Shown here piece by piece: positions 5,789 through 35,152 of a stretch of DNA of 64,000 bases. Numbering within the stretch: position 1 is the stretch's first letter; every line of letters starts with the position of its first letter. A program made the translations under genes and the position numbers. The notes under the pieces are model-generated. The model did no database searches, had not been told where the DNA came from, and was given only the letters and a program-made list of their open reading frames with translations. Source of the stretch: a virus; the IMG/VR virus record IMGVR_UViG_3300022908_000070, positions 1 through 64,000 of that record; one strand, given 5' to 3'.

Positions 5789-6901
5789 TCAGGCACCTTT
5801 CACATTATTAATCACGTCATCCAAAACAACTTTTAATTTAAGATCATTACCGAACGAATATGGAATGATTTTCAAATACTGCAATCTCGCTACAATTATA
5901 GCTGGGTGAGTTTCGTGTTTTCGAGCTATTTGTCTTATTTCTTTTTCAGTAGGTCGCCCACTTATCTCTGTGGTAATATCGACAGGAAGAAGCGATCTAT
6001 TTGCAAATTCATCTGCCTCTTTTTCTTTGTCAGGATCCAGTTTATGTTCATCCAAATCTTCAATAAATACTTCTTTCTTTCCATGTAAAAGAATATGCGC
6101 TGCTTCGTGATAAAAAGTAAACCAAAAATGGTCGTTTGATTTATATCTGTCTGTTAATTGAATAATAGGATTTCCTCCAATCCATCTTGCAGCTCCACTA
6201 ATCGGAGCTTTAGAAATACACATAACATAAACTACAACTACTCCAGCCAATAAACACATTTCTTGCAAACGTGTGGCAAAATCTTCAGGATGATCCTTAA
6301 CCAGCTTGCGTACGCCTATTAAACTTTGTTTAAACGTACCTTTATCGTAGGATTCCAAGTCGCCTATTTTTCGCATTTCTATTTCTCCTATCCTTAGCCA
6401 TGCTGCCATACTGCCTAGAGTAGTCTGATGGGCATCACTTTTGCGAAATCCTGTTGTTACATATTGATCAACATATAACGACTCCCATTGGGAAGGGGTC
6501 GCTACTCCGTAAAACTGAAGACATTCATCCACCATAGCAGTTCCCACCTTATCGCTCTTAATATATCCTGCATTTTTTAATTCTTTGATAGGCTGAGCTT
6601 TTAACCAATCCATGCATTCCTCCAAAGCTTCTTCCTGTTCAAGCCTTGCCAATTTTTCACGGAAAATCATCTCTCTATTAAGCCAAAACTTCGCATCGAT
6701 CCCTAACACTTTCTCCAGTTGTAAAGCTGTTGCTACAGTAATAGGTTCTTTCCCTGAGATTAAATCGTTCACTTTAGAAGGTGTCCTTCCCATTCTTTCG
6801 GCTAACTCAGCCTGACTCATTTTAATATACTCAATAGTTTCTAATATAGTATCTCCAGGCTTGGAGAGTAAGTCTCTTTCATCTTTTAATTTGTTACTCA
6901 T
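5789..6901 (-). CDS. higA: HigA-type antitoxin fused to ImmA/IrrE metallopeptidase
   Basis: A 370-residue two-domain protein. Residues 15-80 form an XRE helix-turn-helix (MSQAELAERMGRTPSKVNDL) of the HigA type. Residues about 220-340 carry an ImmA/IrrE metallopeptidase domain with the zinc motif HEAAH in FTFYHEAAHILLHG and a downstream EKEADEFANR segment. The gene follows a HigB-like toxin gene by 22 bases. HigA normally binds the toxin and represses the operon. The fused peptidase may cleave a partner under stress, by analogy with ImmA; that part is inference. Confidence 0.85.
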   Translation of the reverse strand: MSNKLKDERDLLSKPGDTILETIEYIKMSQAELAERMGRTPSKVNDLISGKEPITVATALQLEKVLGIDAKFWLNREMIFREKLARLEQEEALEECMDWLKAQPIKELKNAGYIKSDKVGTAMVDECLQFYGVATPSQWESLYVDQYVTTGFRKSDAHQTTLGSMAAWLRIGEIEMRKIGDLESYDKGTFKQSLIGVRKLVKDHPEDFATRLQEMCLLAGVVVVYVMCISKAPISGAARWIGGNPIIQLTDRYKSNDHFWFTFYHEAAHILLHGKKEVFIEDLDEHKLDPDKEKEADEFANRSLLPVDITTEISGRPTEKEIRQIARKHETHPAIIVARLQYLKIIPYSFGNDLKLKVVLDDVINNVKGA

Positions 6902-21836: not shown

Positions 21837-23120
21837 TTATAATCCTGCTACCTGCGTTATTGAATAATCATCCCCGTTTGGAATGAAAGTAAATTGCAAT
21901 ATGTTTCCAAACGCTTGATCTTGTGTTTCTCCGAATAATTGCGTCGTGAGCGTTACGTCGTCCACCGTCATTTCAATGTGTGTCATACTTACATGAGGAT
22001 CAGGCCCTACCGCTTCCATAAATGCCTTTACAGAACTTCCAACCGGAAGATTTAAAGTGCCTGTTTTATTTCCGGTTTCCGATACGGTTAATACCCCGTT
22101 TATGTAGATCCTGAAGAAAGTATGATAGGGTGCGTTGTAACTTGTATTGAAAGTGTAGTTCAAAATAGACTGCGACGGCTGTACGGATATAGTGAAATTT
22201 TTAACGAATCCCGTTCCTTCAATATTATTAGCGCAGATAGGAACCATTTCCACTGTATGACCACCTACCGACAAGCTTCCCATATACACCGGATTGGCGA
22301 TCAGGGCTGGTTGCCATGGGCCGCCATCGATCCGATATTTCATTTGAGTAGCGGCGCCGGCATATACGGCTGTTGCAGTAGCCGGGCCACTCGTAATGGT
22401 TATATCGGATATAACTGTACCACATGTCAAAGACTGAGTAACTACGAAATCTTGAGCTAGTCCCGTCCCTTCATATCCGTTAACGCACACTGGTATCATC
22501 TCAATTGAGTGGCTTCCCAAAGACAACCCTGGCACACTTAAAACCAAATCCGCCAATGCAAAAACATAATCCCCGGTATCGTCGATTCGATATTTTATCT
22601 GATATGCCTCTCCGGTGTAGGTATATGATACATGCACTATGCCATCTTCTGCGGTCTGACCATCAACAACGATGGCGTCTATTACTGTAGGACAAGGGGT
22701 AAATCCGTCGAACATATCCATTTTGCCGTTACCCTGAAGTTGAAAATCATTCTTAACAAGGGTGCCCACCGAAAAACTAAAGGTGGATGTTTCAATCATT
22801 ACATAGCCCTGGATAGTCTTCGCATTTCCCTCCTGGTCCTGAAAGCTGCACCGAGCAAGTACATGGTTAAAATTGAAGCTGTTATCCAGCATATCCCATC
22901 CGGTCCAGTTGTCGGTGTCGAAAACCAGCAACCCAGAAAGGGTGATGGAGAACTCCGAATCCTGGTAGGTATACTTTTTCCAATGCCCGTCTCCCCTGGT
23001 TCTGATCGGAAGTTTTGTATTACTTATTTCAATAGAAACATCTGTCCCACAAACAAAAGGAACCCAGTCGTTTTTAAACAGGCTTACTACGGCGTCATTT
23101 CCTTGTATGGTGTTATTTAT
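21837..23120 (-). CDS. Distal tail protein with tube-like N-terminus and two Fn3-like repeats
   Basis: The open frame reaches from 23120 to 21837 (427 residues) but has no ATG, GTG or TTG before the TTG at 22931. The upstream 63 codons encode NNTIQGNDAVVSLFKNDWVP and PFVCGTDVSIEIS, which align with the start of the tail tube protein (QTIQSSDAPIEL, LVCTSDYNIPL). An ATA start at 23120, overlapping the previous stop, or ATT at 23126 is therefore likely. After the tube-like domain come two repeats of about 80 residues sharing (Q)(I/M)KYRID and GLSLGSHSIEMIPVCVNGYE / GSLSVGGHTVEMVPICANN. It is a probable baseplate or hub component. Confidence 0.7.
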   Translation of the reverse strand: MNNTIQGNDAVVSLFKNDWVPFVCGTDVSIEISNTKLPIRTRGDGHWKKYTYQDSEFSITLSGLLVFDTDNWTGWDMLDNSFNFNHVLARCSFQDQEGNAKTIQGYVMIETSTFSFSVGTLVKNDFQLQGNGKMDMFDGFTPCPTVIDAIVVDGQTAEDGIVHVSYTYTGEAYQIKYRIDDTGDYVFALADLVLSVPGLSLGSHSIEMIPVCVNGYEGTGLAQDFVVTQSLTCGTVISDITITSGPATATAVYAGAATQMKYRIDGGPWQPALIANPVYMGSLSVGGHTVEMVPICANNIEGTGFVKNFTISVQPSQSILNYTFNTSYNAPYHTFFRIYINGVLTVSETGNKTGTLNLPVGSSVKAFMEAVGPDPHVSMTHIEMTVDDVTLTTQLFGETQDQAFGNILQFTFIPNGDDYSITQVAGL

Positions 23121-25318
23121 TGAAATAAATAGGAGAATTTATATTGGTCAGGTAAAATGAATCCATCGGCATTCTGGTCGGCCAGGGTTTCGACAAAGAC
23201 TCCCCGCCATTGGCCGGTTGCGTAGTCCTTTTCATAGCTCGTTAGCATATATCTTTTGGTAGGCTCATCGCCCTCTATGAAAGAATAGCTTCCGAGATAA
23301 CCGTTCATCCGAATGACGTATAAGTTATCCTTTGGCAGATAGACAAGGCCCCTCCAGGTTCCCTCAAGTTTTTGGTTCATCCGGAATAGATGGTTGTACA
23401 TGATCCGCTCCATCAGCTGGGCAAACCGGAAGCTTTCTGTTATTCCAGCCCTTTCCCAGGTGGGTCGGCATAGGTCGCCATTCGCTAGCAGGAGCGCGCC
23501 TTTAAAATACCGCTTCGGGCTGTCCGAGATCTCTACATCGTCGGACTCCGTCTGCTTGATGGCATTGTTCGATCCGGAGAAATTGTAATCACCTTTCAGC
23601 GCCTTATATGACCCCTGTAAATAAGGGACGATTGTTACTTGCAGGTTTTTATACCACTGTTCGTCATTCGCGGGACCGTTGGAAGTGGTCAGCAATATCT
23701 TCACGGTTCCGGATACCGGAGCTATAAGAGGGTAAACTGAACCCATCTGCATAGTAATCCAGTCCGTTGCCTTATCTGAAGAAGTACCCTCATATCCGTA
23801 ACCGGGTGTGCCGTTGAATCCGCTGGCCGCGTTACGAAACTGGCTATTCGTGGCAAACCATTGGGCCCTGTTCGAAAATGGATCCGCTATTCCAGGCCCC
23901 TCGGCTCCGTTTACGGCCCAGAAAGTCCCGTCATCGCCGGTAAGGGTTACGATAATATTGCCGTAGGAAGGTCCTCCTGCGCGAGTATTTTTCCACCTTG
24001 CGGTAACGGATATTTGCAAGGCGTCGGATGTGTCAATATAAAAAGTAGAGGATTCTAAATAGGATAACACCGAGGTGGCTTCAATAACCGAGTATCTTTC
24101 TTTCTCATAATCCAGTTGATCCAATACCGACCTTATGTAAGCTCTTTTATCCGGAGTCGTGGCGGGATAAGGGTTTTTGAAAACATCCGCGTTCGTGCCG
24201 TTACTAAGCGCCCAGCAATAAACATCATATCCTTCTGTCTTCAGATCAACCGGCGGCTGTATAGATGGGTCTAAGATTGAGCTACTGATAACGGCATCGT
24301 ACGTCGCGTTCCTATCTCCTTCGGCAAAATCCTGATTGCAAACTTTATTTTGAGACTGATCGTAATTGTAGGTGAGCTTTATCCATTTCGTCGCCAGCTT
24401 CAGATATATAATCTGATCTTCGTTGACCGGGTGAATGATTTCTTGACGGCCAATAGCTATGCTGTAGTCCTGAGACAGTCCTGATCCAACCGCCGTCACG
24501 GGAACAATCCCGCTTACTGGGCTTCCAAATTGGTATTCCCGATATGTAAAGCCGGCTGGGTTCAGGTATTCGTACAAGGAAACCAAATTCCAGACACCAT
24601 CCTCCTGGAAGAGACGACATCGGAAACACCTTACTATCTTTTCCAGCGCCGTATAACAGTCGTCCGCCGATGTAGCGTTTACGTCAACCGACGGGTCATC
24701 CGGAGTGGAATTGAAGGCATCGCCCTGTGAGAACGTGATGGCGCTTAAATAGACCTGTTCCAGGGCGCCTATATTCTGATTGAAGGAAGATTCGAAGAAA
24801 TTGAAATAGACCCGCAGATTGAGGGTTTGGCCGGTCTTGTGTAATATTTGAGCAATCCAGGAGAGTACGGATTGGATGCCGACAAATCGAAGGCTATCCG
24901 TGTCTTCCAGGTCGACGCCCTTGAGCAGGCCCAACCCATCCAGTGCGCGAATGGAAAGAACAAAAGGCTTGTCTAAAAACGGCTGGCTATTATCTTCAAC
25001 AACTACGAAACCCTGAAAAACAGACTTTGTGTAATCCTCGTCCCGGTAGATGGTAACCCGGATTTGGTTATCCTGAGACGCAACTAGGTCGGCTATGGTA
25101 ATATCCGTATCCTCTTCGACCACTATATTTATCAGGGCTTCGGTGCCTATAATCGATTCCAACTTATTCTCGTCGCCAGCTGTTGATCGAAGAGTCAATA
25201 CGTCGTCCGTTCCTTTCAGGATGGTAGGGTCGCCAACAAAATCCAGATATTCCAGATAGATCTCGTAGAACTCATCGAGATCGTTATCAAATGGCAATAT
25301 GTACCTGGTATTATACAA
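23117..25318 (-). CDS. Baseplate/distal tail protein
   Basis: A 733-residue protein placed directly after the tape measure protein, where siphoviruses encode the distal tail and tail-associated lysin or hub proteins. The N-terminal 230 residues (YNTRYILPFDNDLDEFYEIY) resemble baseplate hub folds, with a cysteine-containing EKIVRCFRCRLFQEDGVWNL near residue 235. The C-terminus contains beta-rich carbohydrate-binding-like regions. The start is a TTG that overlaps the tape measure stop. The exact role is inferred from position. Confidence 0.7.
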   Translation of the reverse strand: MYNTRYILPFDNDLDEFYEIYLEYLDFVGDPTILKGTDDVLTLRSTAGDENKLESIIGTEALINIVVEEDTDITIADLVASQDNQIRVTIYRDEDYTKSVFQGFVVVEDNSQPFLDKPFVLSIRALDGLGLLKGVDLEDTDSLRFVGIQSVLSWIAQILHKTGQTLNLRVYFNFFESSFNQNIGALEQVYLSAITFSQGDAFNSTPDDPSVDVNATSADDCYTALEKIVRCFRCRLFQEDGVWNLVSLYEYLNPAGFTYREYQFGSPVSGIVPVTAVGSGLSQDYSIAIGRQEIIHPVNEDQIIYLKLATKWIKLTYNYDQSQNKVCNQDFAEGDRNATYDAVISSSILDPSIQPPVDLKTEGYDVYCWALSNGTNADVFKNPYPATTPDKRAYIRSVLDQLDYEKERYSVIEATSVLSYLESSTFYIDTSDALQISVTARWKNTRAGGPSYGNIIVTLTGDDGTFWAVNGAEGPGIADPFSNRAQWFATNSQFRNAASGFNGTPGYGYEGTSSDKATDWITMQMGSVYPLIAPVSGTVKILLTTSNGPANDEQWYKNLQVTIVPYLQGSYKALKGDYNFSGSNNAIKQTESDDVEISDSPKRYFKGALLLANGDLCRPTWERAGITESFRFAQLMERIMYNHLFRMNQKLEGTWRGLVYLPKDNLYVIRMNGYLGSYSFIEGDEPTKRYMLTSYEKDYATGQWRGVFVETLADQNADGFILPDQYKFSYLFQ

Positions 25319-27482
25319 GCGAGTTGTTTTTATTGGACCGGGCCAATGCCAGACGAATATTGTTTCCTGAGATCATCCCCCGGACATTGATGTCCTGCGG
25401 TCCTCTACCCTGAGTAGATTGAACGAACCTGTTTAACTGGCTGAGTGGGAATATGACTTCCGGGCCAGCCTCACCCACGAGTCCCAGGGTAGGGCCGGTG
25501 ACGATGCCGCCGGTAGCAAAAGCATGGGCGCCAGTTTTTGATACTGAGTTTTTAAGCACTTCGCCCAGAGCAATTGCGCCTATACCAATTGCGATACCTG
25601 CGATAGGATCTTTGAAAAGGCTGTCCAATGCGACTTTTATTCCTTTGATAATAGTGCTAGCCAATATCAACTCCTTGCCTACCGCTATCAGGCCGTTGCC
25701 GAGTATTTCACCAAACGCAGCAATGGACTTATCAAAACTAACGCCCGTTAACGCATCCCCGATCGCTATACCCACCTGATCGAATCCGGCCGCGGCGACA
25801 CCTTGCACGATTGACGTTGCGGCCTTGTTCAAATCCCTCAATACGCCATCTGCTATTGTTTTTTCATCGACAATTGCTTGAATCTTAGGAGTCCATCTGA
25901 TTGTCGGTAGATTTTTCTGTGCGTCATCTGTGATCTGCTTTAATAGGTATCCTTGATCTGTTTTATTCAGCCCCGAATCCTCTATAGCCAGCTTTATATC
26001 AGCCGGCACTTTTAATTGTATTTGCTTGCCAAACGTTTTTTCTATCTGACTTTCCAATTTCTCCGTTGACTTTACTGCATCCTCTGGATTCGCCAGCGTG
26101 AAATCGACACTGGAAAGCAGGTTGGGATTTTTGATCCGGGCAATCTGCCGGTTTACCAGTTCGATCAGCGTTTTTACCTCAGTGGCCGCTTCGGGTGTGC
26201 CGAGTTCGGCGCCCTTTTTTATGGCGTCTGCTATCTGTTTTTGTAATAGTGCAACGCCGTTGAGTTTATCATCAGCGATAGAATCCCGCAGCCGAGTAAA
26301 CAAGGTTCTCGTATCAACTTTATCCAGGGACTTCTGCGCTGCCTCAATTTGTTTAAGCAGATCATCTGTGGGGCCTTTTTTACCAGCCGGCTCATCCTTC
26401 AGGGGCTTCTGCAATAATTGCAGGGCAATATTCTTATTTAGCTCCCCATTGTAGGTTGCTATGGCCGTCCGCAGATCCAACACTGCCGCCCTTTGCTTTT
26501 CGTAAGCAGTATTCGCCGCGTCAAGCGCTTCAAGATTTTTATTGGTTAGAATATCTGGACCGCCTCCCGCTACATTGCCGGCAGATGCGGCAATCGGCCC
26601 CTGTTTGGTGACGGCCGCCTGCGCTCTATCTCTGGCGTCCCTCAGTTTATCGAGTACGTGAGCCTGTTTTTCCAATTCACTGGAAACCTTGGCTATCTCA
26701 TCCACCTGCCCTTTAACAATCGCTTCGGTGATAAGCGCCTGGCTATATTCATTGACGCGACCGGCAAGCGTTTTTAGCGAGTTGGCTTCCAGGGTCAAAT
26801 CCCCGAAATAAGCTTTATTAGTTTCCCTTAATTCGATGAGTGCGTTCTGCCTCTCCTTGTACGACTTATTGGTATCCTGGATGGCTGCTGCCAAGGCTCG
26901 CACCCTGGCGATATTGCCTTGTTCGCCGCCGGTAGCCGAAAGGGTTATATCCCCGGCTTCTTTCAGGCCGTCAATAGCTTTTTGAAGCGCTATTACATCT
27001 TCTGATGCCTTTTTAGCCGTCCTGCCCGTTCCATCCAGCCCCTCGTCAAATATTCCTATGGACTTGGCCGCCTCAAGCAGGCCGGCCCCTATCGCTCCGA
27101 ATATCCCCGCCACTCCGATGCCCGGAAGTACAAAAGCGAGTTTGCGAATGGAACTAAATGCACTGGTGGCAAACCCTGCAACATTACCCCCCGCGTTTTT
27201 CACTTTATTGCCGAACTCGTCGAATCCTTCAACGCCTATTTTCCCCAGTCGGGAAGACTCGGCGCTGAGATCTTTAATTGCACGGTTTAATACCTGCAAC
27301 TCTGCCGGATCTCCTACTTCCTTCTGTGCGTCGCGCAATGACTTCAGCGCCTGGTTGATCGCCGTTATATTACCAACGCCTTCAACCGCCAGCTCTCCCG
27401 TTGCGTCGGTCAGGTCCGAAAGCTTCAAAATAGCCTCCCGAACATCTGCGCTAATTTTTATTTTCAGACCGACGTCACTCAT
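25311..27482 (-). CDS. Tail tape measure protein
   Basis: A 723-residue protein, rich in long helices and Ala/Lys/Asp. It has a hydrophobic glycine/alanine-rich stretch at about 110-135 (FVLPGIGVAGIFGAIGAGLL), another near 640, and a C-terminal GGIVTGPTLGLVGEAGPEVI motif found in tape measure proteins. It sets tail length. It follows the tail chaperone genes with an ATGA overlap. At about 0.15 nm per residue, a tail of about 110 nm is expected. Confidence 0.88.
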   Translation of the reverse strand: MSDVGLKIKISADVREAILKLSDLTDATGELAVEGVGNITAINQALKSLRDAQKEVGDPAELQVLNRAIKDLSAESSRLGKIGVEGFDEFGNKVKNAGGNVAGFATSAFSSIRKLAFVLPGIGVAGIFGAIGAGLLEAAKSIGIFDEGLDGTGRTAKKASEDVIALQKAIDGLKEAGDITLSATGGEQGNIARVRALAAAIQDTNKSYKERQNALIELRETNKAYFGDLTLEANSLKTLAGRVNEYSQALITEAIVKGQVDEIAKVSSELEKQAHVLDKLRDARDRAQAAVTKQGPIAASAGNVAGGGPDILTNKNLEALDAANTAYEKQRAAVLDLRTAIATYNGELNKNIALQLLQKPLKDEPAGKKGPTDDLLKQIEAAQKSLDKVDTRTLFTRLRDSIADDKLNGVALLQKQIADAIKKGAELGTPEAATEVKTLIELVNRQIARIKNPNLLSSVDFTLANPEDAVKSTEKLESQIEKTFGKQIQLKVPADIKLAIEDSGLNKTDQGYLLKQITDDAQKNLPTIRWTPKIQAIVDEKTIADGVLRDLNKAATSIVQGVAAAGFDQVGIAIGDALTGVSFDKSIAAFGEILGNGLIAVGKELILASTIIKGIKVALDSLFKDPIAGIAIGIGAIALGEVLKNSVSKTGAHAFATGGIVTGPTLGLVGEAGPEVIFPLSQLNRFVQSTQGRGPQDINVRGMISGNNIRLALARSNKNNSLV

Positions 27483-27766
27483 TGCTTTTTCCCTTGTTTG
27501 TATTGGCTTAACGTATCTTTAATCTTCTGTTTGAGCCTTTTATATTCCGCATCTTCATCGGGCAGACTATCATCATCAGAGGGCAGCGGCCAAAACTTTT
27601 CAATCTTTGGAAATACCTTTTTTGGATCTCGGTTAACTGCGACGATGTGGTAACAAATGGCCCTGGTATGCTCGAATTCCTGCGACCTTCTTTTATTATA
27701 CCCTCGGGCCATGAATACATATTGCCGCCACGTGGTCCTTGTATACTCTGCTGGTGTCATCCTCAA
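27479..27766 (-). CDS. Tail assembly chaperone frameshift extension (T part)
   Basis: 95 codons that begin at a TTG and are better read as the -1 frame extension of the upstream chaperone. Reading from the nine-A run gives SGDADDRKPDFDEIEAFALG, then ELRMTPAEYTRTTWRQYVFM, with no stop, and joins this frame to make a fusion of about 225 residues. The T domain recruits the tape measure protein in siphoviruses. The gene ends at the tape measure start (ATGA). Confidence 0.8.
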   Translation of the reverse strand: MRMTPAEYTRTTWRQYVFMARGYNKRRSQEFEHTRAICYHIVAVNRDPKKVFPKIEKFWPLPSDDDSLPDEDAEYKRLKQKIKDTLSQYKQGKKQ

Positions 27767-27786
27767 CTCACCCAGCGCGAAGGCTT

Positions 27787-28155
27787 CTATTTCGTCGAAA
27801 TCTGGTTTTCTGTCGTCGGCGTCTCCGCTTTTTTTTTGCCGAATGCCAGTTTTATGTACTTGCTGTCTTCGAACACCTGCATCGCAGCTATAACCTCCCG
27901 TTTGATCGTTTCTTCTTCGATATTTTCAACCAGGTTGTAAAAGGACTCATAGGGGATCGTCGCCAGAGTATCCTTCATGGCGCAGCCGTTCAGGTAGCCT
28001 GCATATAGGATATGAGACAGCCCCAGTTCGTTGTAGTCTTCCCCTGATAGCAGGTCATATTGAGCCATCTTTTCGAATATGCGGCGCAATGCAGGCAACC
28101 CGAACTTCAGGACGAGCGCTTGGCCATCCACAGTTATTTGAGCGAGTCCGTTCAT
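27787..28155 (-). CDS. Tail assembly chaperone (G part)
   Basis: A 122-residue protein, mostly helical, following the tail tube gene by one base overlap. Residues 95-109 (SKYIKLAFGKKK) end in the Lys codons of the slippery run. The zero frame then continues for 13 more residues to a TAG stop. The size, position and slippery run are those of the G protein of tail chaperone pairs. Confidence 0.82.
   Translation of the reverse strand: MNGLAQITVDGQALVLKFGLPALRRIFEKMAQYDLLSGEDYNELGLSHILYAGYLNGCAMKDTLATIPYESFYNLVENIEEETIKREVIAAMQVFEDSKYIKLAFGKKKAETPTTENQISTK
27829..27837 (-). promoter_or_regulatory. Slippery sequence for programmed -1 frameshift
   Basis: On the minus strand nine consecutive As follow GGC, giving the heptamer A-AAA-AAA in the chaperone frame. 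Slipping back one base enters the T frame, which is open through to 27479. The last codons before the slip are Lys-Lys-Lys. I did not compute a downstream stimulatory structure. Confidence 0.8.
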
Positions 28156-31074: not shown

Positions 31075-32028
31075 TTATTTTGCGTTTTGGATGAAGAGTT
31101 CCAATTCCTGGTATCCCTTCAGCGGATCCAGTTCGCGGCTGCGATGCTTACATATTTCGCTTTGTCGAAGATACGTTTTTTTATTGTCCAGCCGCCTAAT
31201 TTCCCGGACCCAGCCGTCAACGTCGTTCCGGTCCACGAATATTCCAGCCTCACCGGCGTTTTCCTTCAGGCCGAAAGTCGGCGAGCAAATCACTGGGATA
31301 CCGTTACACATGGCCTCCGTGCAGGTCATACCCCAGCTCTCATACTCCGATGGCATAAGAAGGATACGCGTCTGCTGGTATATAGGAAGGATATAGGGGC
31401 TGTTTTCCAGGATCATGACATTGGGCAGGCGTTCAATTATCTGCTCGTCATAGCTTCCCCTAATGCCCATGAACATCTTATCAGGCATTCTCCGGGCGAT
31501 CTCGTAGAAGATATGTCCGCCTTTATTGGCGTTGAGGTTGATAAGGGAAATAAACCGATTATTGATAGGCTCGAGGCAAACATCATATTTTCGATAATCC
31601 ACAGGAGGGCGGAGGACCATTGATGGATGTGGATATTTCAGAAGATCGGCGGCGTATTGGCTGTTATAAATGATGTTCATCGGAATGCGGCCGTCATCCG
31701 CGCAGGCGTACCGGCGGGTATTGTGAACGATGAAGAAAACTGGCTTTTTGTAGATTTTGCAGATATGCGCCGTCCAGTTGGTATATTCCAGGTGGGTGAA
31801 TACCCGGTCGGCCCAGTTGATATGATTCTCCAGCTGCCTTGCCGCCGGCCAAACCTCCACTCCTTCGAAGTTGTAGGTTTGGGTAATGCCGTACCGCTTC
31901 GCCTGATGCAGTAATACCCGGCATTGATGTCCTTTGGAGATCAAGTATTTGGCCATGTTATGGATAAACATCTCCCCGCCGCAGTTGTGCTTCGGCGGAT
32001 ACAGGTGAACGCTAAATAATACTCTCAT
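31075..32028 (-). CDS. Glycosyltransferase family 4
   Basis: A 317-residue GT-B glycosyltransferase. The N-terminus has MRVLFSVHLYPPKHNCGGEM (glycine-rich entry), and the C-terminal domain has the nucleotide-sugar site LLMPSEYESWGMTCTEAM with the E-x7-E pattern. It transfers a sugar from a nucleotide donor. It is the last gene of the glycosylation cassette and lies 7 bases before the connector gene. Confidence 0.8.
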   Translation of the reverse strand: MRVLFSVHLYPPKHNCGGEMFIHNMAKYLISKGHQCRVLLHQAKRYGITQTYNFEGVEVWPAARQLENHINWADRVFTHLEYTNWTAHICKIYKKPVFFIVHNTRRYACADDGRIPMNIIYNSQYAADLLKYPHPSMVLRPPVDYRKYDVCLEPINNRFISLINLNANKGGHIFYEIARRMPDKMFMGIRGSYDEQIIERLPNVMILENSPYILPIYQQTRILLMPSEYESWGMTCTEAMCNGIPVICSPTFGLKENAGEAGIFVDRNDVDGWVREIRRLDNKKTYLRQSEICKHRSRELDPLKGYQELELFIQNAK

Positions 32029-32792
32029 ATGATTATTGCATTTTCGGGGTACAAATCCTTTGTTTCAGGCGTCCAGGCCGGGCCGAACCATTGAGATGGG
32101 CAGACGATCTTTTTCTTCTTAGCGGGCGAAAGGATTGCGGCCATTAAAGAAAAAGAGCTGTTGCCGCAGATAAAGCCGCCGCATCTTTTCATCATTCGGA
32201 AGTCTTCGAAATAGCTTTGTTTTGGTGCGGCATGCAGTCCGCCCGAATGCGACGCATAGGTAGAAGTGGCTATAATCATTGCCGCTGCCAAAGGGTCATC
32301 CGAAAAAACTACAAATTTTGTTGCTGGCGGGAATTGCTCAATAGCACGGGCATAGTAACTTTGATCTAGCCTTGTGTGGTATTGATTATCGTAGTCGCCA
32401 AGGCGTACGTGGATGGCTACAAAGTCTTCGAAAGAGTCTTCTTCCTTCATCGCAAAATAATGCTGTATAACATCTTTGCAATGCTTGAAATACTTCTCGC
32501 TCTGCATATGCCCCGACAGGCTTACGCCATCGGGGATACGCATATCCGGATGATACCCCCATGAGATCGGGAAGTCAGGAAGGTTGATGTCGGAAGCTGG
32601 TAGGGGGTTGACAAAATACTTCTGGAGGTCAACGTCTTCGGTTGAACCAAACCGGTCCTTGTGATCATAATTGATCCACTTCGGGAAGGCGTAACTATAA
32701 CCATGCTTTGTTGCAAGGCCAATGGTCCCGGCTATCTGGAATAGCTGGTTTGCGAAACGACCGTACCGGCCGAGCTGGGAAAATGTGATCAT
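32025..32792 (-). CDS. GT11-type fucosyltransferase
   Basis: A 255-residue protein. QLGRYGRFANQLFQIAGTIG at the N-terminus and FVAIHVRLGDYDN near residue 125 are the motifs of alpha-1,2-fucosyltransferases (GT11). GGFICGNSSFSLMAA at about 210 is the third family motif. It would add a fucose to a glycan acceptor. It overlaps the GT4 gene by four bases. Confidence 0.82.
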   Translation of the reverse strand: MITFSQLGRYGRFANQLFQIAGTIGLATKHGYSYAFPKWINYDHKDRFGSTEDVDLQKYFVNPLPASDINLPDFPISWGYHPDMRIPDGVSLSGHMQSEKYFKHCKDVIQHYFAMKEEDSFEDFVAIHVRLGDYDNQYHTRLDQSYYARAIEQFPPATKFVVFSDDPLAAAMIIATSTYASHSGGLHAAPKQSYFEDFRMMKRCGGFICGNSSFSLMAAILSPAKKKKIVCPSQWFGPAWTPETKDLYPENAIII

Positions 32793-32829
32793 GCGGCTCG
32801 ATCCGCCGTAGTGCTTTATGAGTTACATA

Positions 32830-33462
32830 TTACAGCCAAGACCTGTCGAAATATTGGTCTGCGTTCACCACGCCATCGCCGTCAATCTCAGGGAATAGGT
32901 CGCGGTATTTATTCAGGATAAAAATACAATTGCCTTTATGAGCCAACAGGAAGTACCCTTTAGACAACCCCAGCATGACCATTCCCGAATAGGAGGCGCC
33001 CGACTTGCCTGGTATAACGATCTCAGGCGGCGCAATGGAGCTATTTACCTCGATTACCACTACGTCCGCGTTGCCCCTATAGGCATTCCAGATATGGAAG
33101 TCGTCGTTGTCTACGTCGATGGAAAGCAGGTTCAGCCGTTCGGGAATCAATTCATTGGCGTTATGGGCGGTCACCGACCCGAAATAAAGCTCAATCGGCT
33201 TGCCTATAGTATTGTCGATCAGGGCCTTCGCGCGGACAGGATCAGCTTCTATGAGTTTTCCCGTCCAGCCGTTTTCAAGGAGCAGTCTGGTGTTGCTACA
33301 AAAGATACCGTCAGCTGCTCCGAACTCGCAAAAAGTGCCTTTATCGATCTTCAGACGGCGAAAGACTTCGGAGAGAACTCCATCCTCCCCATTCTGGGAG
33401 TGGATATCAGCCCCGTATCTGGAATAGAAATTAACATGCTCAATAAGTGCTGATGTGCTCAT
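32830..33462 (-). CDS. FkbM-like methyltransferase-fold protein
   Basis: A 210-residue protein. SQNGEDGVLSEVFRRLKIDK followed by GTFCEFGAADGIFCSNTRLL is a Rossmann methyltransferase entry like FkbM proteins, and LLSIDVDNDDFHIWNAYRG follows. It might methylate a sugar within the cassette. The cofactor site is recognisable, but substrate is unknown. Confidence 0.7.
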   Translation of the reverse strand: MSTSALIEHVNFYSRYGADIHSQNGEDGVLSEVFRRLKIDKGTFCEFGAADGIFCSNTRLLLENGWTGKLIEADPVRAKALIDNTIGKPIELYFGSVTAHNANELIPERLNLLSIDVDNDDFHIWNAYRGNADVVVIEVNSSIAPPEIVIPGKSGASYSGMVMLGLSKGYFLLAHKGNCIFILNKYRDLFPEIDGDGVVNADQYFDRSWL

Positions 33463-33662
33463 TTAATTTGATTATAACATACCTGACATAAGTCAGAAAC
33501 GGTTTTCTTTTCTTCCCCTACTTGCACCTCCAGCGTAAACCGCTGGCCCATTATAAAGGCCCCGCAATTTCTGCATGGCAGGCAGCGTGGCGATAAATTT
33601 ACCCCTATTGTCATCCCCAGTACCTTTCGACGCTTCAAAAACATCTTTCTTATTTTTCCCAT
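33459..33662 (-). CDS. Small zinc-ribbon-like protein
   Basis: A 67-residue protein with paired cysteines, CLPCRNCG in the middle and CQVCYN near the end, which could bind zinc. The start overlaps the end of the upstream glycosyltransferase gene by 13 bases, and the stop overlaps the next start (ATGA). This frame is preferred to the overlapping one because of these junctions and the cysteine pattern. Confidence 0.6.
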   Translation of the reverse strand: MGKIRKMFLKRRKVLGMTIGVNLSPRCLPCRNCGAFIMGQRFTLEVQVGEEKKTVSDLCQVCYNQIK

Positions 33663-34387
33663 TCATGATTACGTTTACGGTGGTGCCAAAGTAACACAGG
33701 ATATCTGTCATTTGCAAATCCGGCCCTTAGGTGTTCTGCGGTAATCGTTGGAAACCAATGTAATCGATATCCGTATTTAATTTGCAAACAGCATAGAATT
33801 GACTGATCCCAGCGGTGTTCTTGGAAAGATGCGACATTTAGGTTTTTGCTGGGTTCGTTGTCGATCATCCCGGGAAGCAGGGACCACGCGTACCACTCTT
33901 GAATAAACCGGCGCGTTTCAGTCGTTACCCTTACAAAGAAAGTCGATGCCTGTACCTGGGGTTTATCAATCCGGCAATCATTGTCAAGGTCTCTGTAATA
34001 ATACTCCGGCAGGATGTTCTCGATACAATCCATCTTACACCAATCCGTATGAGGCCACCCATTAGAAAAGAAAAGGATATCTTGGTCCATCCCCTGTATT
34101 GCCTGCCGCATATCCGCTATCCATTCGTTACCGGCATCGCAATACACAAGGATATCTCCGTCGCTTAGTCGGCACATCTCCCGGTGGACAATATAGGGTT
34201 TCCAGCAATAAAAGCCGGCTCCGCGCTCGTGCTTCAGGACGTCGGCCATTGTCTCCTTGAACTCAGGGGACAGATCGCCTGGCGTCCAGATGCTATAAGC
34301 ATCCGCCCCATGCTCCATCGCAGACTGAGCGCATTTGTTGGCGCTTATGGTCATGCGGTCATCGGTGAAGGTTATCAGTTTAATCAC
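33650..34387 (-). CDS. Glycosyltransferase-like protein
   Basis: A 245-residue protein with a GTG start overlapping the previous stop. LITFTDDRMTISANKCAQSA begins the fold, and GDILVYCDAGNEWIADM near residue 77 looks like a DxD-type metal and nucleotide-sugar site. Later KTLNVASFQEHRWDQSI-type features fit a GT-A transferase. The family name is not certain. Confidence 0.6.
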   Translation of the reverse strand: MIKLITFTDDRMTISANKCAQSAMEHGADAYSIWTPGDLSPEFKETMADVLKHERGAGFYCWKPYIVHREMCRLSDGDILVYCDAGNEWIADMRQAIQGMDQDILFFSNGWPHTDWCKMDCIENILPEYYYRDLDNDCRIDKPQVQASTFFVRVTTETRRFIQEWYAWSLLPGMIDNEPSKNLNVASFQEHRWDQSILCCLQIKYGYRLHWFPTITAEHLRAGFANDRYPVLLWHHRKRNHEWEK

Positions 34388-34517
34388 GCGGCTTAGGGTT
34401 TATAATAACGTATACGATTGCGCTTAGCCATCCTGCCAAAAAATCGCTTGCGCCAATGTGTTCCAAAATAACAGCCGCACCAAGTGACGCGACCAAGCCG
34501 AGTATTATATTTTTCAT
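34380..34517 (-). CDS. Small membrane protein in glycosylation cassette
   Basis: A 45-residue protein starting MKNIILGLVASLGAAVIL, with two hydrophobic segments. Its ATG overlaps the GT25 stop (ATGA) and its stop overlaps the GTG start of the next gene. These junctions support translation. It could anchor the enzymes or modify a lipid-linked glycan. Confidence 0.6.
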   Translation of the reverse strand: MKNIILGLVASLGAAVILEHIGASDFLAGWLSAIVYVIINPKPRD

Positions 34518-35152
34518 ATGCTCATTATTTTATTCCCTTCGGCAAAAGCGCCAGTATAGTCCGTATCCGTTCCCCAGAGATCCGATTTCCCTGGACGCTG
34601 CCAGGCAACCATCGGATTGACGATATAGGCGTTACAGGCGGGCAGTATGACCTCTGAAAGCCACGCGTCGTACATAGCCTCTGGGTTGAAGAGCGACACG
34701 ATTCGCGCAGCGCATTCCCGGGTGTAAGCTACTGCGTGAGTTGTCCACGCTCGGTATACCTGGTAGATCGTTGGCGTGATCTGCCGAGGGGGGAAATCTT
34801 TAATCCCGGTTACCATACCGGTAATGTTCGCTCCCAGATACAAAATATCCCAGCCCTTCGGCAAATCCTTCAGCGCGGTCGGCAAGTGCCCTAAATCATG
34901 AAAGACCACATCATCCTCCAAGGCGAGAAGTGTCTGCTTACCCGTAGCCAGAAAGCTTTTAAGCATAGCATACTGAGACAGGCAGAAGGATTTTATCGGC
35001 TGATCAGCCGGCAGACTGGCAAATCGTTCAACTCTTTCCATCTTCGCCCGTGATAATTCTTCCTTGGCCTGCTCCCAACGGTCCGGTCGGCTGTCCTGGT
35101 TGAGGCAATAAATCACTTCGAAGAAGTCCCATACGCTTTTGTTGTTGCTCAT
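34514..35152 (-). CDS. Glycosyltransferase family 25
   Basis: A 212-residue protein. FFEVIYCLNQDSRPDRWEQA is the signature start of GT25 transferases, and QTLLALEDDVVF near residue 72 carries the ExDD-type motif. YDAWLSEVILPACNAYIVNP matches the C-terminal conserved block. GT25 enzymes act in LPS and other glycan synthesis. The beginning overlaps the previous gene by 125 bases. Confidence 0.8.
   Translation of the reverse strand: MSNNKSVWDFFEVIYCLNQDSRPDRWEQAKEELSRAKMERVERFASLPADQPIKSFCLSQYAMLKSFLATGKQTLLALEDDVVFHDLGHLPTALKDLPKGWDILYLGANITGMVTGIKDFPPRQITPTIYQVYRAWTTHAVAYTRECAARIVSLFNPEAMYDAWLSEVILPACNAYIVNPMVAWQRPGKSDLWGTDTDYTGAFAEGNKIMSI

Follow-up and report, generated by a model that had tools for sequence, protein, structure and literature searches.

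A tube-like tail gene without a standard start codon behind the hub-like gene of a probable Bacteroidota phage

Gene callers place the start of a bacteriophage protein at ATG, GTG or TTG, and a conserved reading frame that offers none of these codons at its expected beginning raises the question of where, and how, its translation starts. We examined such a frame in a 64,000-nucleotide stretch of viral DNA (hereafter the window) that covers positions 1 to 64,000 of a 65-kb IMG/VR virus record, IMGVR_UViG_3300022908_000070. The capsid protein of this virus has its nearest counterparts in Cellulophaga and Flavobacterium phages, at 33-34% identity, and a Bacteroidota host is therefore likely.

All of the tail genes concerned are minus-strand genes: the tail tube (28583-28155) comes first, followed by the chaperone, the tape measure (27482-25311), the hub-like protein (25318-23117) and the tube-like frame (to 21837). 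The tail tube protein (142 aa) matches phrog_1407 at 2e-7 and Pfam Phage_tail_2 at 3e-4, just short of the family cut-off, and its model retrieves the tail tubes of 80alpha, Sf11 and lambda in Foldseek. The hub-like gene, which ends with TAA at 23119-23117, is a homologue of gp088 of Cellulophaga phage phi10:1, a virion protein by mass spectrometry. Its start at 25318 is TTG in the window and ATG (MYGTKYIL) in L002, a related contig described below. The chaperone region (27479-27925 on the minus strand; 1222-1593 in L002) carries the signature of a lambda G/GT-type tail assembly chaperone frameshift: in both phages, the last part of the chaperone gene contains a conserved A9 run (27829-27837, minus strand), after which a -1 frame of about 110 codons, likewise conserved, leads up to the tape measure start.

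A conserved N-terminus ahead of the first standard start

The hub-like gene closes with ...TTA TTT CAA TAA, its stop ending at 23117. The tube-like frame is -1 relative to the hub frame in both the window and L002 and, after an in-frame TAA, reads ATT CTC CTA TTT ATT TCA ATA AAT AAC ACC ATA CAA GGA. The original prediction held that this frame contains no ATG, GTG or TTG until 22931, 63 codons downstream of the start it proposed, and both the coordinates and the codon count are correct: the minus-strand frame 23126-21837 lacks all three codons from the upstream in-frame stop to the TTG at 22931-22929, and a search for a standard start farther upstream found none before the in-frame stop was reached. 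The absence of a standard start is thus a real feature of the sequence. Counted from the codon that we prefer as the start (ATT, see below), the full frame (21837-23126) encodes 429 residues and aligns end to end with four relatives, whereas a start at TTG 22931 would omit 65 codons (22932-23126), the N-terminal half of the tube domain. Among 46 start codons sampled in five contigs, 45 are ATG and one is TTG.

Scans of IMG/VR viral contigs together returned the same four relatives of the tube-like protein (L002, L004, L007 and L008). Searches of phage records, and scans of genome collections for prophage relatives by alignment and with the DSPKRYFKGA DNA pattern, yielded no relative. L002, a separate IMG/VR record whose protein is 53% identical to that of the window, also has no ATG, GTG or TTG at the junction. 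After the same in-frame stop it reads ATT TCA GTA GCT AAT ACC ATA CAA GGA, and its first standard start is a TTG at 6199, codon 67, so that both phages are free of standard starts between the preceding in-frame stop and codon 65-66. In the other three relatives, 38-41% identical, a standard ATG is found where the hub stops, in the form ATGA in L004, TAATG in L007 and TAA-ATG in L008, and the N-termini that follow align with the window protein from its first residues. Their ATG is therefore at the same junction and not elsewhere, and their upstream sequence is homologous. The anomaly occurs in two phages only, the window and L002.

Over 61 N-terminal codons compared between these two phages, 47 residues are identical (77%) at saturated synonymous divergence (pS 0.855). 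The pN of this segment, 0.17, is lower than that of the remaining tube domain (0.23) and of the C-terminal part (0.41). The other two frames over the same codons contain stops and give only 22 of 61 matches. Since the synonymous sites are saturated and the protein is nonetheless conserved, the codons before TTG 22931 appear to be translated. The upstream 63 codons are conserved, and a translated N-terminus with no available ATG, GTG or TTG is found in the window and L002 alike. Together, L002 and the codon conservation support a start upstream of TTG 22931 at a non-standard codon.

A tube domain followed by Fn3-like domains

The tube-like protein matches phrog_1407 'major tail protein' (E 1.1e-10, residues 5-161), and all five members of its family do so; it and the tail tube protein are the only phrog_1407 matches in the genome. 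This match disappears when the 63 N-terminal codons are removed by cutting at TTG 22931, and the same is seen in L002, which supports the expectation that callers limited to ATG, GTG and TTG would cut off the tube domain. The proposed resemblance of the codons before the TTG to the tube N-terminus is weak by BLASTP against the tail tube protein (E 0.034) and clear at the profile level, where hhalign of five family members against five tube proteins gives E 1.5e-6 over 137 columns. This alignment places the tube domain at about residues 4-144 (22694-23117). In AlphaFold2 models of modest confidence, the order of strands and helix is that of the tube model (helix 76-84 versus 75-83), and the codons that a TTG start would omit encode the strands preceding the helix.

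The two Fn3-like repeats that had been predicted to follow are seen at about residues 146-232 and 233-316 (22173-22691) as AlphaFold2 blocks with pLDDT mostly 66-89, and this region retrieves NCAM Fn3 pairs in Foldseek (TMt 0.48). A C-terminal beta domain lies after them. The full-length model (mean pLDDT 66) retrieves Fn3 pairs and lambda gpV, with low TM-scores. Lambda gpV consists of a tube domain plus an Ig-like domain. Pfam returned no match to the tube-like protein, and a search of PDB sequences returned chance matches only. Identification of the protein as a tube paralogue is thus supported, and its gene sits behind those for the tape measure and the hub-like protein. The gene order and the fold family suggest a location at the tail tip, possibly as a Dit-like ring between tube and hub.

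Candidate starts and alternative explanations

Three near-cognate codons are common to the window and L002: ATT 23138, ATT 23126 and ATA 23108. The first is forced by the Lys-Phe codons of the hub and is also found in L004. ATT 23126-23124 lies inside the hub gene, 4 nt before the hub stop codon; it is identical in L002 (6001-6003), absent from the relatives with ATG, and conserved along with an aligned MS/IS context. Its joint occurrence in both phages has a chance of 0.013 given the hub amino acids, although it is partly dictated by the hub's own Phe-Gln codons, which counts against it. ATA 23108-23106, 8 nt past the hub stop, is likewise identical in L002, in a region (ACCATACAAGGAAA) kept at the DNA level; its joint chance given Ile is 0.086. 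The Asn before the Thr-Ile-Gln motif is kept via a synonymous change (AAC/AAT) and is present also in L004 and L008, so a start upstream of this Asn is mildly favoured. Upstream context scores, trained on 46 sites in these contigs, reject TTG (-3.4 and -4.7; the -3.4 of TTG 22931 is among the worst) but fail to separate ATT 23126 from ATA 23108. On balance, we prefer AUU 23126, to which we assign about half of the probability, with AUA 23108 as the second choice at about a quarter.

The start originally proposed was a different codon, the ATA at 23120-23118, which would derive from an ancestral ATGA through one G-to-A change to ATAA. L004 has ATGA exactly there, a single substitution would create the TAA stop and remove the ATG at once, and position matters in coupled initiation. 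The described overlap with the upstream stop holds, but when the T-I-Q motifs are aligned the tube ATG falls one codon later, at AAT 23117. L002 has GTA at the site of the proposed ATA, which is not a known start, and among the near-cognate candidates tested in the window this ATA scores lowest for upstream context, making initiation here unlikely. The same G-to-A change could instead be a sequencing or assembly error, or the gene could be decaying. In L002, however, the start is missing independently and the bases differ (CAGTAG), and an error is unlikely given two separate records that differ in this way; with N-terminal codons constrained at saturated synonymous divergence and no internal stop, we regard error or decay as very improbable. 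The TTG at 22931, the first standard start in frame and the one that a gene caller would write, is hardly credible: it splits the tube domain, abolishing half of it and the family match, its context is among the worst, and the codons upstream of it are the most conserved part of the gene.

Two further explanations dispense with a start codon altogether. A -1 ribosomal frameshift near the end of the hub, which the original prediction named as its alternative, would produce a hub-tube-like fusion, and the tube-like frame is indeed -1 to the hub and open across the hub stop in both phages. The last 30 hub codons of the window and of L002, however, contain no X XXY YYZ heptamer, whereas the conserved A9 slip site in the chaperone gene of the same operon, a positive control, was detected. 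Moreover, a -1 frame is just what the ATGA overlap of L004 produces, and in L008 the two genes share a frame, separated by TAA. A programmed frameshift is thus unsupported and improbable. Ribosome bypass would have peptidyl-tRNA-Gln leave the last CAA/CAG of the hub and land 17 nt farther downstream, at the CAA within the conserved I-Q-G motif. Both phages do have a Gln codon directly before the stop and an in-frame CAA at equal distance, but L004, whose gene starts with ATG, has the same two glutamines, so conservation accounts for the match. Further elements of a bypass site were not seen, and we consider this route highly improbable.

A proposed stop-coupled start and its precedents

We consider it likely that the locus is functional and encodes a distal tail protein of the tube fold, and that it has lost its ancestral ATG and is read from a near-cognate start coupled to the hub stop. 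The product would comprise the N-terminal tube domain, two Fn3-like domains and the C-terminal beta domain. After loss of the ATG at the hub stop in the window lineage, ribosomes finishing the hub would restart close to the stop at a near-cognate codon, for which AUU 23126-23124 is the most likely choice and AUA 23108-23106 a less likely one. In a region without structure and free of Shine-Dalgarno (SD) sequence, coupling to the hub stop would position these ribosomes. Both candidates lie within 10 nt of a ribosome that terminates hub translation at 23117. There is little structure at the junction, whose unpaired value (0.62 for the window, 0.57 for L002) ranks in the upper half of the tested sites. 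Bacteroidota have no SD sequences, and their initiation depends on unstructured regions (PMC6847099). AUU is a genuine start in E. coli infC (PMC5472188), and E. coli re-initiation can use a non-canonical start when it is read by a matching mutant initiator tRNA (PMC2268962). Counting against the mechanism, E. coli IF3 represses both non-canonical starts and SD-less re-initiation (PMC2268962). The weak codon may keep synthesis low, fitting a protein of which each tail probably needs about one ring; lambda gpM is used as a single ring (PMC10721106). More tentatively, a Bacteroidota phage lineage may have fixed AUU or AUA as a start that is coupled to the stop codon of the hub and sets the dose of a tail-tip tube paralogue. 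If true, this would be a stop-coupled, SD-free, non-AUG mode of initiation kept by selection in a virion gene.

Each element has partial precedents. The infC (ATT) and sigR (GTC) genes also have near-cognate or non-standard starts that gene finders mis-call (PMC5472188). They differ in being cellular genes repressed by IF3, whereas the window gene is of phage virion type, with an overlapping stop and no SD. Stop-coupled re-initiation in polycistronic mRNA likewise has a start within a few nucleotides of the upstream stop; the known cases mostly use AUG, in contrast to the non-AUG codon that we infer here. Lambda gpM is a tube-fold hexamer at the tail tip with the topology of gpV (PMC10721106), and the window protein would resemble it as a putative tube-fold protein of the tail tip. 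The window protein shows no sequence membership in the gpM/Dit type or gpV, its C-terminal part is longer, and its gene comes after the hub-like gene, not before. The tail genes of phage phi10:1 follow the same order, and gp089, which comes immediately after the hub homologue gp088, is a second tube-family (PF06199) gene; unlike the window gene, it has a normal ATG, encodes 171 aa without Fn3 domains, and shows weak sequence similarity. This gene (L014 9826-10341) suggests a wider occurrence of tube duplication at the tip among Bacteroidota siphophages.

Tip-located tube paralogues are thus already known, and it is unusual for a phage virion gene to have a non-standard start that is conserved; the combination of a second tube protein behind the hub with such a start, common to two divergent phages, is new. 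In a literature search of partial coverage, no virion gene of a phage that starts with ATT came up, a result that speaks weakly for novelty. Non-AUG starts beyond GUG and UUG are very rare in bacteria, and one reconstruction counted a switch from AUG to AUU in 1 of 61,358 ancestral AUG starts (PMC5622118). The locus offers a defined sequence for testing how SD-free Bacteroidota ribosomes pick a start after termination. It also exposes a practical fault, as standard callers would report the tail protein minus half its tube domain, with its family hidden.

Two other features of the window were observed. A block of sugar-modifying genes (31075-35152, minus strand) between the capsid and neck genes encodes a group 1 glycosyltransferase, a family 11 (fucosyltransferase-like) enzyme and three proteins with no Pfam match; L007 and L008 have a glycosyltransferase-like gene at the equivalent position. 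Three consecutive minus-strand late genes, for a large repeat protein (21477-17824), an RCC1-repeat plus PKD protein (17824-16067) and an esterase-like protein (16058-14973), have apparent secretion signal peptides at their N-termini, as does a large protein at the equivalent place in L004 (8801-11794). Such secretion-type signal peptides are unusual among virion or late phage proteins.
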